Of a DNA stretch of 64,000 nt, positions 37,473 to 42,243 are shown one piece after another. Below the pieces are notes generated by a model, which was given only the letters and a program-made list of their open reading frames with translations, made no database searches and was not told the origin of the DNA. A program made the translations under genes and the position numbers. Numbering within the stretch: the stretch's first letter is position 1; each line of letters begins with the position of its first letter. Source of the stretch: Polychytrium aggregatum (taxonomy: Eukaryota; Chytridiomycota; Chytridiomycetes; Polychytriales); assembly GCF_025602895.1 (NCBI RefSeq), contig NW_026516214.1, forward strand, positions 310,001 to 374,000, given 5' to 3'.

Positions 37473-38104
37473 ATGTCTTGGTTCATCGAAAAGAGCATCC
37501 TCGACCATCTCGGCGTCTGGATCAGGACCAACGGTTACCAGCTGTCGGACCACGAAAAGCAGTGCGTCAAAAGCTACGACACCTCGCCCCAGTTCTATCT
37601 GCCGGCCAACTTTGTGCTCTGGGGAGGCGTCGCCTACTCGACCCTGAACTTCAATCCCAAGGTTATGCCTCGCTGGCTGCAGCTCTTTGGCGTCGTCGGC
37701 ATTTCTGCAGGTGCATTTGCGACCGTCTACTGGAGCTCCAAGTATGCCGCAAAGTCCTGTGTGCAGGTATGTCATCGGCTGTTCTGCCGATCGCTTTGAA
37801 TCGCTTTGAATCGCTTTGAATCGATCGGTGGATGGCTGTGCTTGGTCGATCTGCATATCGCTCTGCATATCGCTCTGCATATCGCTCTGCTCGGCCCTCA
37901 TTCTTTTGCTCGCCCCCTTGTATCGGATCCGCCAACGATCATCCCGACCACCTCGACCAACTCGACCCACCCGATCAGTGTTTCGTCGACACTCAAGACA
38001 AAAAGTCTGAGCTCTACAAGACCACCATCCAGATCCTGAAGCAATACCATCACAACCCCAAGGAGTTCCTGGACAAGGAAAGGCACTCGCCGTCAATGCC
38101 GTAG
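37473..38104 (+). CDS. Small two-helix membrane protein, 139 aa
   Basis: Two exons, 37473-37766 and 37979-38104, joined in phase 0 at CAG|GTATGT and GATCAG|TGTTTC. The protein starts MSWFIEKSILDHLGVWIRTN. It has two hydrophobic stretches (FYLPANFVLWGGVAYSTL and LQLFGVVGISAGAFATVYW) split by PKVMPRW, then YAAKSC and a charged tail ending NPKEFLDKERHSPSMP. The spacing of two helices, a central PK and a following Cys recalls the OCIA domain of mitochondrial/endosomal proteins, but the match is too weak to name. The 212-bp intron carries 10-bp and 12-bp tandem repeats. The stop codon is only 13 bp from the Fanzor transposon, so the transcript probably ends inside the element. Confidence 0.75.
37791..37890. 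repeat. Two adjacent intronic tandem repeats (10 bp and 12 bp)
   Basis: Three copies of TCGCTTTGAA (about 37791-37823) and three copies of ATATCGCTCTGC (about 37853-37890) lie in the only intron of the small membrane protein gene. Confidence 0.85.
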
Positions 38105-38117
38105 TTCGTACACTTTA

Positions 38118-38136
38118 TTCAGAAAAAAACGGGACA
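38118..38136 (+). repeat. Terminal inverted repeat, Fanzor side
   Basis: Reads TTCAGAAAAAAACGGGACA inward, preceded by TA. Differs from the opposite end at positions 2, 5 and 6. Confidence 0.88.
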
Positions 38137-38197
38137 ATATAGCCGTTTCCATGAACATGTAGTATGTGCTGTGCTTGCGTCAAGCAAAGCCACAAGA

Positions 38198-38203
38198 AAT
38201 AAA
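38198..38203 (+). promoter_or_regulatory. AATAAA polyadenylation signal inside the element, on the host-gene strand
   Basis: Plus-strand AATAAA lies 94 bp after the stop of the small membrane protein gene. No AATAAA is seen between that stop and the element. Confidence 0.4.
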
Positions 38204-38208
38204 ACAGA

Positions 38209-40581
38209 TCACTTTGGCAGCCTCCGAGTGAAGACCGCCGGTCGCTCTCCGATCTCCACAATCGACTTGCACACTATGATCATGTTGCGCGCCGCATTGA
38301 CGTCGCGATTCCACACTGTCCGGCAGCTGGGATTCTTGCAGCTCCTGACAAAGTGGGAATTCGCAACACTGGGCGCATCGAGTCCTTCCAACCGAACTGG
38401 CTCCAGGCACTTGGAGCACACCTGCGAGGTGTTGAACTCGTTCGTCGAGGCCACCTTGACGCTTCCATGAGGGTGATTGGGACGGCGTCGGTGGTGCTCG
38501 AACTGCTCAAAGTACCGAGCAAACCGCTGCCTCCGAGGGCTGGATGCATAGCCCTTGCCTTGACGCCATGACGCATTGCCAAAGGCGATCACCACATCGG
38601 TCCGTATTGGGGCGTGCTTCAGGACGGCCTTGCACATCCTGTCGACGGCCACTTGGCGCCTCTTGTGGCCCGTGAAGCGATGGTGACGGGCCTTCTTGCC
38701 AAGGTGGAAGTCGAGCTGCACTCGCAGCTCCGGTCGCAGGACATGGGTGAGATGGACCTTGAAAGCCTCCGAGGACGACACCTTGGGCGAGGGGGTGGTC
38801 GACATCCAGGTCTCGATGCTGAGTCGATACTTCATGGTGTTGTGCCACTTGGTGTTGGACGTATGGCCACACATGTGCTGATAGTGACCATTCGAGAATG
38901 AGACCACCTCGTCTTGGTGGCCTGGTGCTTGGATGACCGCCGTGAAGATGGAGCCGACTCCAGGATCGATGCCAATCCAAGTGGTGCGATCGGGGTCTGG
39001 GTCGCCGATGTGGGCCTGGATACGCTGCTCGGCAGTCGGAGGAGGCTCGATGGTCTCGGTGTGATCGGTTCGACGCAAAAACTTGACGAGGCCGATGGTG
39101 CATCCAATGCCATCGGTGCTGATCTCGTAGTTGAACAGCTTGTGATTGATATCCCGGTCACGGAAGAGGGAACTACGCAGCTTGAAGCAACTGCGCCAGA
39201 GACGATCCTGGTTGTTGACACCGTCATCACCTTCTTCCTTGAGCTTGTCCCTGGTGAGTCCAAGGCGCTTCTTTGGACCCAGGAGATTCCAAAGAGTGAC
39301 CGTGTCAATCTTGACATACTTGGCCCTTGCAGTGCATAGAGGAACTATCGTGCACACGGCCGGAGGAGTGTCAAGAGCGAGCTGCTTGAGTGCCCACTTG
39401 ATCCTGGATGCCAGCTTGTTGATCTTGGACTTGGTGGTGCCGAGCTCAGACTTGGCCGTGGTGAACCTCTTGTCGTCGGAGGGAATGCCTTGGGTAGTGA
39501 GCTCGTCCAGCTTGGCCTGGCGCTGCAGCTCGGTGACTCGGAGGGCGGGCATGTCACAGTCGATCCACTTGTGGACATTGTCGACCATCTTGTCTCGGGC
39601 GAGGATTCTCACATGGTGTGAGAGGCGATGGAGGGCCCGGAAGCGGTCCTGGTCGCTGCTGTACCGAAACTCGTCCAGGATGTGGCCAAAGTCTGGATAG
39701 AGGAACTCGAGATCGGCCTTGGGTGGAGTCTGCCCTGGTTTCTCGAAGAGCTCGAGACAGGCCTCGATGGCTTCGTGCTTGTGCTTGTTGGCTGGGAAGA
39801 CGGCAGCGCAGAAGCGGCGAAGGAGTCGCCAGTAGGCCAGGTCGAGGTGGGTGGTGCAGTTGGTGGCATAGGCATTGACAGCCAGTGTGAGAAGCTGACT
39901 GTGAGCACCATCAGGCAGACGAGGGGCCGGAGGCAGGTCTGCGTGCCGAGTGGTCTGGTAGTCGCGAAAGGAAGCGACCAGATGCTCGTTGTATTTCTTG
40001 GTATCCCTGGACGTCGAGAGGGCACCGGCCTCGACAATCATGGAGCATTGGCGAACGAAAGCAGGGGTGGCCCTGGAGATGACAGGGACGGGAAGACCCT
40101 TCTCGATGCACCTCAGGATATGTAGGTTGAGCAGCCTGGATGCCTCGAACTGGATCTGGGTCATGGCCTCGACGGTGGCCTGGATCTTGTCGCGGAGAGC
40201 GGGATTGAGACAACAGCCATCCATCGTCTGCTTGAAGCAGCTGAACTGAGGGGCGGATGACCTTCCATCCACGAGTGGGACGACAGAACTCTTGAGGGGC
40301 CGGTATTTGGGACATTTGCTGGTGTTGCAACGTTCGTGATCGGTGCCATCGCACTGGCGACATCGCTTGCCGGTACTCGAGGAAGTAGATGGACCAGGCT
40401 CGGTGGGATCGACATCCATTGGATCTGCAGAAGCAGTGGTGGTGAGCGACGGAGCAACAGACGACCAAGCATGCGTGGGATCAGAAGACGAACCAGAGAC
40501 AGGCTCCGACTGTGACTTGGCTTTCTTGGGCCTGGGTGGCCGAGGCTGGCCATCACCGGTACCCTTGCGCTTCGGAGGCAT
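38209..40581 (-). CDS. Fanzor RNA-guided endonuclease (TnpB-like), 790 aa
   Basis: Single-exon, full-length. The N-terminus is basic (MPPKRKGT; RPPRPKKAK at 15-23), a likely nuclear localisation signal, as expected of a eukaryotic nuclease. A small Cys/His cluster follows (C74, C77, H82, C85, C90). The middle (about 100-500) is the recognition/wedge part with many charged helices and no name-worthy motif. The RuvC nuclease is in the C-terminal third: WIGIDPGVGSIFTAV with Asp539, VVIAFGNASWRQGKGY (663-678), TNEFNTSQ with Glu715, a zinc finger C722-C725...C748-C753, and WNRDVNAARNM with Asp760. Asp539/Asp760 match RuvC-I and -III. Glu715 fits the relocated catalytic glutamate described for Fanzor proteins. 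Fanzors cut DNA guided by a small RNA from their own locus. The gene follows the transposase by 184 bp but has its own TATA box. Confidence 0.95.
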   Translation of the reverse strand: MPPKRKGTGDGQPRPPRPKKAKSQSEPVSGSSSDPTHAWSSVAPSLTTTASADPMDVDPTEPGPSTSSSTGKRCRQCDGTDHERCNTSKCPKYRPLKSSVVPLVDGRSSAPQFSCFKQTMDGCCLNPALRDKIQATVEAMTQIQFEASRLLNLHILRCIEKGLPVPVISRATPAFVRQCSMIVEAGALSTSRDTKKYNEHLVASFRDYQTTRHADLPPAPRLPDGAHSQLLTLAVNAYATNCTTHLDLAYWRLLRRFCAAVFPANKHKHEAIEACLELFEKPGQTPPKADLEFLYPDFGHILDEFRYSSDQDRFRALHRLSHHVRILARDKMVDNVHKWIDCDMPALRVTELQRQAKLDELTTQGIPSDDKRFTTAKSELGTTKSKINKLASRIKWALKQLALDTPPAVCTIVPLCTARAKYVKIDTVTLWNLLGPKKRLGLTRDKLKEEGDDGVNNQDRLWRSCFKLRSSLFRDRDINHKLFNYEISTDGIGCTIGLVKFLRRTDHTETIEPPPTAEQRIQAHIGDPDPDRTTWIGIDPGVGSIFTAVIQAPGHQDEVVSFSNGHYQHMCGHTSNTKWHNTMKYRLSIETWMSTTPSPKVSSSEAFKVHLTHVLRPELRVQLDFHLGKKARHHRFTGHKRRQVAVDRMCKAVLKHAPIRTDVVIAFGNASWRQGKGYASSPRRQRFARYFEQFEHHRRRPNHPHGSVKVASTNEFNTSQVCSKCLEPVRLEGLDAPSVANSHFVRSCKNPSCRTVWNRDVNAARNMIIVCKSIVEIGERPAVFTRRLPK

Positions 40582-40708
40582 GGGGGCAGAGGATGCTGGA
40601 TGCCTGCCAGTGGTACTGGTCAGAGCAGAGACTTTCTTTATCGTACAATAGCGCGATGATCAGATCAAGGCGAGATGAGGGAAGAAAGCAGCAGGACGAA
40701 GGTGTGGC

Positions 40709-40715
40709 ATTTATA
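40709..40715 (-). promoter_or_regulatory. TATA box of the Fanzor gene
   Basis: TATAAAT on the minus strand, between the transposase stop and the Fanzor ATG and 128 bp upstream of the latter. It suggests that Fanzor is transcribed separately from the transposase. Confidence 0.55.
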
Positions 40716-40765
40716 CCCGAGAGCAGGAACCCGTCTGCGCGGGCTGGTTGGGGAAGTGACCCTGT

Positions 40766-41761
40766 TCAAAAATCGCCGAGAGGTTCAAGCCAGGGATGTG
40801 AACGCGAAAATGGCGGCTTGATTGGAGGGAACTCAACCCCAGAAGCGCATCGCTCAATCAGCCGTGGGAAGACATCTGGAAGCACCCTCCGAACGGCAGA
40901 CTCGAACAATGTGACCATCCCGACCTTGAACCCCTCGGACGCATTCAGCGCTGTTGTCTTCCTGTACTGATGCTTCACAATCCCAAAGAAGTTCTCGATG
41001 GGATTGAAGTCGGGCGAGGCAGGTGGGGTGAAGATCACTGACCATCCTCGGCGCTCGATGCAGTCCAGGACAGCCATTGTCTTGTGCATGCTGACATTGT
41101 CCATCACAATCACAGAGTCGTCTGGGAAGCTCGCTCGCTCAAAGAACTCGACCATCGAGTGTGTCTTGAATGATGTGGGGATGTACATGCGATGCAGCAC
41201 ACCAGAGTGGTTGATGGCAAATGCAGCCGAGACAGACTTGTGCTTCATGTTGTGGCGCCTCTGCAGTCGGGCACCTCTCTCAGAGTACCCATGGAGGGGG
41301 AAAATGGATTTCCTGATCCCTGTCTCATCGACAAAAACGAATCGTCGTGGGTCGATGGAGCGGACCTGGTCCCTGAACTGTGCCACTCGCTCATCCAGTC
41401 GCTTGGACTTGTAGAGGTGTGTTGCCCTCTTGTGTGAGAGACCTGCTCGGTGGATGGCAGTGTGGCAGAGTGAGAGTGATACTTTCCTCTGGAGGATGGA
41501 CTCGAGCTTGCATCGCAACACAGGACCAGTCTGGAACGGGTCCTGTTCAATCAGGGTGCGAATGACTGGACATGCCTGCTCGAAGAAAGTGGATCTGCGA
41601 GCTGGGACCCGGGATGGGTCATCCAGCTTGCAACCTCGGTGCCATCGATGGATGGTGCTCTTGGATACACTGAATATGGAGGCGACCTTACGCAGGCTAT
41701 GGATGAGGGCGTAGCATCGCAATGCGGCGGTGCGAAAGTCGGATGTGTGGCGAATGGTCAT
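40766..41761 (-). CDS. Tc1/mariner (IS630-like) DD34E transposase, 331 aa
   Basis: Single exon, MTIRHTSDFRTAAL to SHPWLEPLGDF. A helix-turn-helix (about 12-42) has LRKVASIFSVSKSTIHRWHR. A second DNA-binding part (about 65-115) has LCHTAIHRAGLSHKRATH. The catalytic DDE domain shows Asp145 in FVFVDETGIRKS, Asp221 in VIVMDNVSMHKT and Glu256 in PPASPDFNPIENFFG, with 34 residues between Asp221 and Glu256, the DD34E spacing of Tc1-type enzymes. The length is normal for the family and all three catalytic residues are present. The ATG lies 58 bp inside the right terminal repeat. It should bind the 19-bp ends and move the element by cut and paste. Confidence 0.95.
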   Translation of the reverse strand: MTIRHTSDFRTAALRCYALIHSLRKVASIFSVSKSTIHRWHRGCKLDDPSRVPARRSTFFEQACPVIRTLIEQDPFQTGPVLRCKLESILQRKVSLSLCHTAIHRAGLSHKRATHLYKSKRLDERVAQFRDQVRSIDPRRFVFVDETGIRKSIFPLHGYSERGARLQRRHNMKHKSVSAAFAINHSGVLHRMYIPTSFKTHSMVEFFERASFPDDSVIVMDNVSMHKTMAVLDCIERRGWSVIFTPPASPDFNPIENFFGIVKHQYRKTTALNASEGFKVGMVTLFESAVRRVLPDVFPRLIERCASGVEFPPIKPPFSRSHPWLEPLGDF

Positions 41762-41819
41762 GGCCAGCGCGCGATAACATTGGGTAACAAAATATTCGAT
41801 GAATGGTCAAAATCCCGGG

Positions 41820-41838
41820 TGTCCCGTTTTTTATTGGA
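41820..41838 (-). repeat. Terminal inverted repeat, transposase side
   Basis: Reads TCCAATAAAAAACGGGACA inward from the minus strand. The innermost 13 bases match the other end exactly. Confidence 0.85.
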
Positions 41839-42243
41839 TCGCCCGTAATACCCCCCACGATTGCACCCAGAGCAGGGATCTAGCGACGACCCGGGTTCAT
41901 GCATCAAATAGATTTCTCTCTCTGTCAGACCCAGTTTCGTCCTGCCCGCACTCGTCCCCGATCGCCTATATCTTGGTCCGGGTTGGTCTGGTCGGGTGTT
42001 GATCTCCAGATCTGTCAGTTGGATCTGTCAGTTGGATCTGTCAGTTGGATCTGTCAGTCGATCGGCTTGGCCCCAGTTCATTTGCCCCGGCTCATTCGCC
42101 CCAGCGCCCATCATCCCGAACCGGCCCCTCCCTCCCCTTCTTCCTGCTGCTGCCCTCGATCTGGCCACACGACCATACGCTTGCGCTCCCACATTGCATT
42201 TCATACGACGACAGCACTTCCTGAGCCAGACCTGCCTTTTGCC
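41839..42243. other. ARP8 upstream region
   Basis: Holds a 13-bp tandem array and pyrimidine-rich stretches just before the ARP8 start. The element's transposase end abuts this promoter region. No gene is seen. Confidence 0.5.
42009..42060. repeat. 13-bp tandem repeat in the ARP8 promoter
   Basis: Four copies of GATCTGTCAGTTG, the last with one change, about 180 bp upstream of the ARP8 start codon. Confidence 0.9.

Follow-up and report, generated by a model that had tools for sequence, protein, structure and literature searches.

A transposon family in the chytrid Polychytrium aggregatum offers a way of addressing what Fanzors do for the transposons that carry them. The window analyzed here, i.e., the whole stretch of 64,000 nucleotides at positions 310,001 to 374,000 of contig NW_026516214.1 (assembly GCF_025602895.1, forward strand), had been suggested from its letters alone to harbor an apparently complete Fanzor-bearing Tc1/mariner transposon at 38118-41838. 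That the element is a Tc1/mariner-type transposon which bears a Fanzor and encodes its own transposase is supported by matches to profiles, by the catalytic residues and TA duplications, and by the size of a family whose ends are conserved. We consider it moderately probable that, in this Fanzor1-bearing IS630/Tc1/mariner family, the nuclease recuts sites emptied by excision, recognizing 5′-TTA together with the flank, and so forces the element to be copied back. In the following, RE denotes the Fanzor-downstream end (38111) and LE the upstream end (41845), with the Fanzor on the minus strand; all positions are those of the window, and the parts of the element are:

38111-41845, no strand assigned: the whole element, 3,735 bp, delimited by comparison of 39 copies
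38109-38110: TA target-site duplication on the Fanzor-downstream (RE) side, from the copy comparison
41846-41847: TA target-site duplication on the Fanzor-upstream (LE) side, from the copy comparison
38111-38136, plus strand: 26-bp terminal inverted repeat (TIR) of the RE side, containing AATAAA
41820-41845, minus strand: 26-bp TIR of the LE side, from the copy comparison
38209-40581, minus strand: open reading frame (ORF) of the predicted Fanzor1-type RNA-guided nuclease, 790 amino acids
40766-41761, minus strand: ORF of the IS630/Tc1/mariner DD34E transposase, 331 amino acids
40710-40715, minus strand: intergenic TATAAA box read from the sequence, a putative Fanzor promoter

The 19-bp arms originally taken as the ends survive as part of these repeats, being the inner portion of 26-bp imperfect TIRs that match well on the inside and poorly in their outer half, but the boundaries themselves had to be moved 7 bp further out at each end. 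The RE end starts exactly with CACTTTATTCAG in 36 of the 39 copies and with one change in each of the other three, and at the opposite, LE end the sequence is GCCTG or closely similar, with TA next to it. At the 32 distinct insertion sites of full copies, TA is present at all 32 right flanks and at 30 of the left ones. Throughout the IS630/Tc1/mariner superfamily the transposase excises the element at the TIRs and inserts it at TA.

The 790-amino-acid ORF was recovered as originally described, with D539, E715 and D760 in place and a zinc finger formed by C722/C725/C748/C753; a DPG at 539-541, T718-S719 and R759-D760 complete the set of signature residues. Its C-terminal part matches PF07282, the TnpB/Cas12f C-terminal domain (36.3 bits versus a cut-off of 26.3), and the TnpB model NF040570 aligns there too, with a score that stays under its cut-off (25.4 vs. 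100). The protein contains the Fanzor motif of Bao & Jurka, D-X(125,275)-[TS]-[TS]-X-X-[C4 zinc finger]-X(5,50)-RD (PMC3627910, in the passages available). It also contains the fingerprint published later, namely a DPG with the RuvC-I Asp and an alternative Glu placed six residues ahead of the zinc finger's first Cys (PMC10711439, likewise in part); DPG (539-541) and E715/C722 (ExxxxxxC) show no change in any of the 25 copies aligned, which were selected as uninterrupted. Unlike this fingerprint, the search expression of the same paper, DPG-x(120-160)-E with CxxC twice, does not describe the protein, which has 173 residues from DPG to E715 and CxxxxC as its second Cys pair. The best PDB match is SpuFz1, a marginal one limited to the C-terminal tail (E 0.43 with the single sequence, 0.048 with a profile); LaTranC is a second marginal match. 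None of the 7,999 candidates scored in the homologue search reached E 0.001, and two stretches of viral contigs that matched a pattern encode no relative. From its sequence features we predict that this protein is an RNA-guided nuclease, which its IS630/Tc1-type context and the marginal SpuFz1 match tentatively place with Fanzor1 rather than Fanzor2.

The transposase likewise carries D145, D221 and E256 where they had been placed, with 34 residues between the last two (DD34E), and it matches the DDE_3 domain (79.5 bits versus a cut-off of 28.6) and an IS630 transposase model (120 vs. 100); 17 homologues were found at E 0.001 among the 1,611 candidates scored. Both genes had been called intact, which holds for the Fanzor at its 790 amino acids, but only in part for the transposase: the window copy misses 4 bp that are present in 37 of the 39 copies, a gap common to one other copy. 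Because of it the C-terminus differs from the commonest form in the family, of 310 amino acids (19/39 copies), while the catalytic residues are untouched.

In the assembly (64.7 Mb in 418 contigs), a search with the TIR patterns allowing up to three mismatches found 279 RE-type and 418 LE-type ends, some RE ends being missed owing to changes in A-run length seen among the 39 copies; the reversed control patterns had no match in the same assembly. The genome searches for full copies, Fanzor, transposase, reverse transcriptase and DDE_3 cover the best-scored candidates. Within that scope, the search for further copies that had been proposed showed that the window element is not alone: at least 32 matches span the whole 3,721-bp query, at least 31 of them besides the window's own. 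The Fanzor lacks an internal stop in 50 of its 57 best-scoring matches (frameshifts not judged), and the transposase has at least 131 matches, in which some copies count twice because they match in two pieces. Among the 39 copies, the Fanzor reaches at least 780 amino acids in 31, the transposase at least 300 in 22, and both do so in 18. Seven copies (L014, L016, L026, L027, L029, L038 and L047) share one or both flanks with another copy; they were excluded from the motif count, the linkage table and the selection and diversity counts, and kept in the pairwise copy comparison, the variant listing and the counts of private and shared variants. Beside the allelic copies L017 and L029 lies a fragment with 68-69% identity to the 3′ region of the Fanzor (C99:20696-21066 and C402:129232-129602), perhaps a second, diverged element of the same kind.

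The insertion sites of this family are one-sided. In 29 of the 32 distinct full-copy sites the LE-side TA is followed by A, whereas the mirror-image T precedes the RE-side TA in 6 of 32 (p 6.6e-9 for the asymmetry); as a background, 12.7% of the 3,131 TA sites in flanking DNA have A as the next base. A larger sample, which overlaps with this one and was drawn from 100 of the 235 pattern matches at LE ends and 42 of the 335 at RE ends, has A at 77 of 81 distinct LE-side sites versus T at 4 of 37 RE-side ones (p 1.9e-20). On the Fanzor strand the motif reads 5′-TTA immediately before the element, and from this one-sidedness we predict 5′-TTA as the target-adjacent motif (TAM) of the Fanzor. A parallel comes from Spizellomyces punctatus, where, in the passages of that study available, the tested TAM, CATA, includes a dinucleotide CA that is conserved before the TA, just upstream of LE (PMC10432273). 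Together with the RE end, this defines a second set of features:

41846-41848, minus strand: predicted TAM 5′-TTA (TAA on the plus strand), from the one-sided insertion-site motif
38109-38200, minus strand: putative omega-RNA scaffold of two hairpins, from the fold of the window copy, 26 distinct sequences and retention in derivatives
38089-38108, minus strand: putative guide of the window copy, i.e., its own flank, by analogy with SpuFz1 (PMC10432273, in part)
38114-38119: AATAAA on the Fanzor strand, inside the RE-side TIR

A guide RNA at the 38118 end, as had been surmised, is plausible as a candidate, with the amendment that the scaffold would reach 38109 and the guide would lie in the flank. 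The last approximately 90 nucleotides have a computed fold of two hairpins, of which the second pairs the TIR with subterminal sequence; the LE end has a different and less stable fold. Over the final 60 codons of the Fanzor, diversity at third codon positions is 0.019 versus 0.074 elsewhere, a level as low as which is seen in only 0.8% of 60-codon windows, and the scaffold might begin as far upstream as about 38275, within the 3′ end of the Fanzor. Since excision leaves one TA behind, which would be part of the motif, the TA at RE more likely belongs to the scaffold than to the guide. The AATAAA in the RE-side TIR, kept in 51 of 52 sequences (counted by eye), could serve as a polyadenylation signal. 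An Rfam scan of 37900-42000 returned one match, at 18.6 bits versus a gathering score of 100, which we take as chance. On the plus strand, an ORF at 37832-38104 (stop codon TAG at 38102-38104) ends a few bases before the element; the putative guide of the window copy overlaps its 3′ end, and the element may supply the 3′ end of that ORF.

Short derivatives without both genes occur in four structures of 279, 308, about 380 and 1,110 bp (13 sequences). All 13 keep at least 164 bp of RE, while LE is down to 95 bp; the gene-less derivatives examined thus keep the putative guide-RNA end. Selection acted on both genes while the family spread, as is indicated by the ratio of nonsynonymous to synonymous polymorphism (pN/pS): for shared variants it is 0.34 in the Fanzor and 0.26 in the first 300 codons of the transposase, and for singletons 0.50 and 0.65, respectively (32 copies). 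The proposed search for empty sites came back without one: no junction-spanning match was found for 12 plus 26 joined sites (best 40 of 94 and best 40 of 146 candidates), representing 29 of the 32 distinct full-copy sites (L017, L024 and L036 left out) and all nine distinct derivative sites. In the 12-site search, seven sites have both flanks on a second contig, separated by element-sized gaps in six cases and by about 32 kb in one, and an eighth has one flank there. The second contig of the window element begins in its right flank (C329:1-106), the other haplotype being apparently broken in the assembly.

The one-sided motif, the retention of the RNA end, the pN/pS ratios and the want of an empty allele are read as the Fanzor helping the element to survive its own excision. 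Under this proposal, the transposase, to judge from its residues, the TIRs and the TA, would excise the element at the TIRs and insert it at TA. The Fanzor would bind an omega-RNA built from the RE end and the adjoining flank and would cut DNA that bears this flank sequence beside 5′-TTA. An emptied and rejoined site would read TTA plus the guide match, and the Fanzor might cut it again and again until the element is restored by repair that uses the sister or homologous chromosome as its template. Because of such recutting and copy-back, the insertions oriented with TTA at the LE side would be those retained, and the short derivatives that keep the omega-RNA end could use the Fanzor in trans.

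Several observations weigh against this proposal. At the RNA end, the fold is only weakly better than that of shuffled sequences (z -2.1 and -1.7), and the non-coding stretch 38137-38208 has almost the same nucleotide diversity as the intergenic spacer (0.031 vs. 0.036). The scarcity of variable columns in paired positions (7/56 vs. 20/51 unpaired, 26 distinct sequences; p 0.0018) speaks for the putative RNA, but was computed on a structure derived from the same sequences. The RE-retention bias of the derivatives rests on four structures, and these were picked, from the first 100 places of each end list, by having both ends close together. As for the motif, with no empty site to compare, the A at +1 is assigned to the target by the TA rule alone. 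In the search for empty sites, such a site is expected, though not proven, to rank first among the scored candidates; for the 26 sites, not every site's flanks are among the matches listed; and sites occupied in both haplotypes may simply be old.

A further set of observations concerns the copies themselves, which are mosaics of shared variants. Linkage between variants has an r2 of 0.6 at distances of 1-2 bp and has decayed to background once they are about 25 bp apart. Six allelic pairs share both flanks; the sixth differs inside the element by 0.03%, and the other five (L011/L016, L013/L014, L019/L026, L025/L027 and L017/L029) differ there by 1.1-3.5%, with an identity of 95.6-100% across the aligned pieces of their flanks (for two pairs, 100% over 2 kb). 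Among the allelic pairs, from 31 of 40 to 109 of 131 of the differences have both states in other copies. Four allelic pairs of derivatives, each with 160 bp of identical flank, comprise one structural difference (279 vs. 308 bp), one of eight bases, one of a single base and one identical pair. Independent reinsertion at one site is unlikely for the allelic pairs, which have the same orientation and near-identical flanks. Two copies, L020 and L047, have the left flank in common and not the right, and the sequence to the right of L047 is found again beside another copy (C52:94777-94808), a pattern that fits crossing-over between copies or a misjoin.

The mosaic pattern looks like exchange between dispersed copies, but it is ambiguous, and the allelic differences inside near-identical flanks could reflect either conversion between copies or assembly mixing. 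The possibility that mosaics and allelic differences alike are assembly artefacts, with a consensus that mixes reads of many copies, is one we take seriously and lean only slightly against. Conversion tracts are usually longer than the approximately 25 bp within which linkage is lost here, and the start of contig C329 in the right flank of the window element points the same way. Moreover, a retroelement control, for which 12 stretches were fetched and six distinct related ones compared, is nearly as mosaic (51/105 site pairs incompatible vs. 55% on average for sets of six copies of the element). This last result also weakens a Fanzor-specific reading of the mosaics; retroelements, too, recombine during reverse transcription. 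The control is a reverse-transcriptase element (G000) with an open frame of 1,284 amino acids and many copies (e.g., on C115, C173, C201 and C366), often clustered a few kb apart, whose compared stretches range from identical to about 2% apart. Against the artefact stand two retroelement copies on different contigs that are identical over 1 kb (0/1,001 differences), and the consideration that majority calling should leave fewer variants at intermediate frequency. So too does the insertion site L050/L070, which bears two structural forms of the 0.3-kb derivative (279 and 308 bp) on two contigs within 160 bp of identical flank. No Fanzor-less DDE_3 family was recognized as a control among the best 150 matches (77.5-92.4 bits), which form no separate score group and many of which lie in copies of the Fanzor-bearing family, the rest being unchecked. 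Repeat-induced point mutation as the sole cause of the variation is rejected, as the variants stand at intermediate shared frequencies with an excess of synonymous changes over expectation, even if C>T and G>A outnumber the other kinds of change (186/493 shared variants).

It is conceivable that recutting by the Fanzor accounts for more than retention. In this fuller version, forced copy-back would yield the one-sided TTA, the lack of empty sites and the RNA-end derivatives, continual template switching would turn the dispersed copies into a freely recombining pool, and the polyadenylation hexamer of the TIR would set the length of the guide; taken as a whole, we find this improbable.

Alternatively, the family may be old and dying, i.e., once active and now fixed and drifting, with a Fanzor that has no present function, a reading that we regard as possible but are inclined to doubt. 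It would account for the failure to find an empty allele at any of the 38 sites among the candidates scored, and for the distances between non-allelic copies, which differ by 1.8-4.9% with L034/L037 as the closest pair of the 39 copies. The weaker selection on singletons and the eight Fanzors and 17 transposases of the 39 that fall under the above length thresholds point the same way. On the other hand, the great majority of the best-scoring Fanzor matches lack an internal stop, the Fanzor singletons are still below the neutral expectation, and the allelic differences between near-identical flanks need ongoing exchange, unless they are artefacts. The original prediction that the element is possibly active is only partly upheld, by the coding capacity of 18 copies and by selection; the 1.8% between the closest non-allelic pair and the want of an empty allele among the candidates scored give no sign of recent transposition.

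Finally, the TAA/TTA motif might be the transposase's own preference, with the Fanzor as a passenger that has no part in it. The outer 12 bp of the TIRs differ between the ends (CACTTTATTCAG vs. CAGGCAATCCAA), which would permit an oriented contact with the target, and the gene-less derivatives show the same motif, with A after the LE-side TA in nine of nine distinct sites. However, as the examined derivatives all retain the RNA end, they cannot separate Fanzor from transposase as the cause of the motif, which is as much a caution for our proposal as for this alternative. Target preferences of Tc1/mariner elements are usually symmetric. Given this, and the S. punctatus precedent that links such a motif to a TAM (PMC10432273, in part), we deem a preference of the transposase unlikely.

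Fanzor passengers in Mariner/Tc1 elements were already known, as the original prediction had held: mariner elements with both a transposase and a Fanzor1, PGv-1 and PUl-1, were published in 2013 by Bao & Jurka (PMC3627910). Compared by description only, these resemble the present family in that a mariner-like transposase and a Fanzor1 are encoded together in one element that has TIRs and is flanked by TA. PGv-1 differs in being described as single-copy with a further GIY-YIG gene, and analyses of a TAM-like motif, deletion derivatives or selection are absent from the passages of that paper at hand. SPu-1, the element of SpuFz1 in S. punctatus, shares the TIRs, the TA and a conserved motif at LE, there an upstream dinucleotide within the tested TAM. 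Its omega-RNA at RE is the counterpart of the putative one here, and its numerous gene-less “ghost” elements retain the omega-RNA region much as the short derivatives here retain their RE end. It differs in that, in the available parts of that study, no transposase was found between its TIRs, whereas the present family encodes one (PMC10432273); the TAM is CATA as against the predicted TTA, and the similarity to SpuFz1 is the marginal one noted above. The TnpB proteins of IS200/IS605 and IS607 elements have in common the PF07282 end, with NF040570 staying below its cut-off, and are set apart by the Fanzor-type signature (DPG and alternative Glu) and the eukaryotic Tc1/mariner context found here. 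For the mosaics, a likeness exists to Tc1 of Caenorhabditis elegans, the copies of which reportedly exchange sequence, as Fischer, Wienholds & Plasterk are said to have shown in 2003 by comparing strains. Those copies are likewise dispersed and mostly intact, each being a unique mosaic of variants; the comparison here is within one assembly, where an artefact is possible, and to our knowledge C. elegans Tc1 carries no Fanzor.

Thus, the family is a well-supported further member of a known group of Fanzor-bearing mariner elements. Among the papers listed in the literature searched, which covers few subscription journals, none is evidently about this family or its footprint. What is new are the one-sided sites that predict TTA, the derivatives that keep the RNA end, the pN/pS ratios of both genes, the search of 38 sites that found no empty allele among the candidates scored, and the mosaic copies. 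Its value lies in the combination, in many copies, of a transposase, a nuclease, a putative guide RNA and gene-less derivatives all within the same terminal repeats. The TTA prediction makes the part that a Fanzor may play in cut-and-paste transposition testable in one system.

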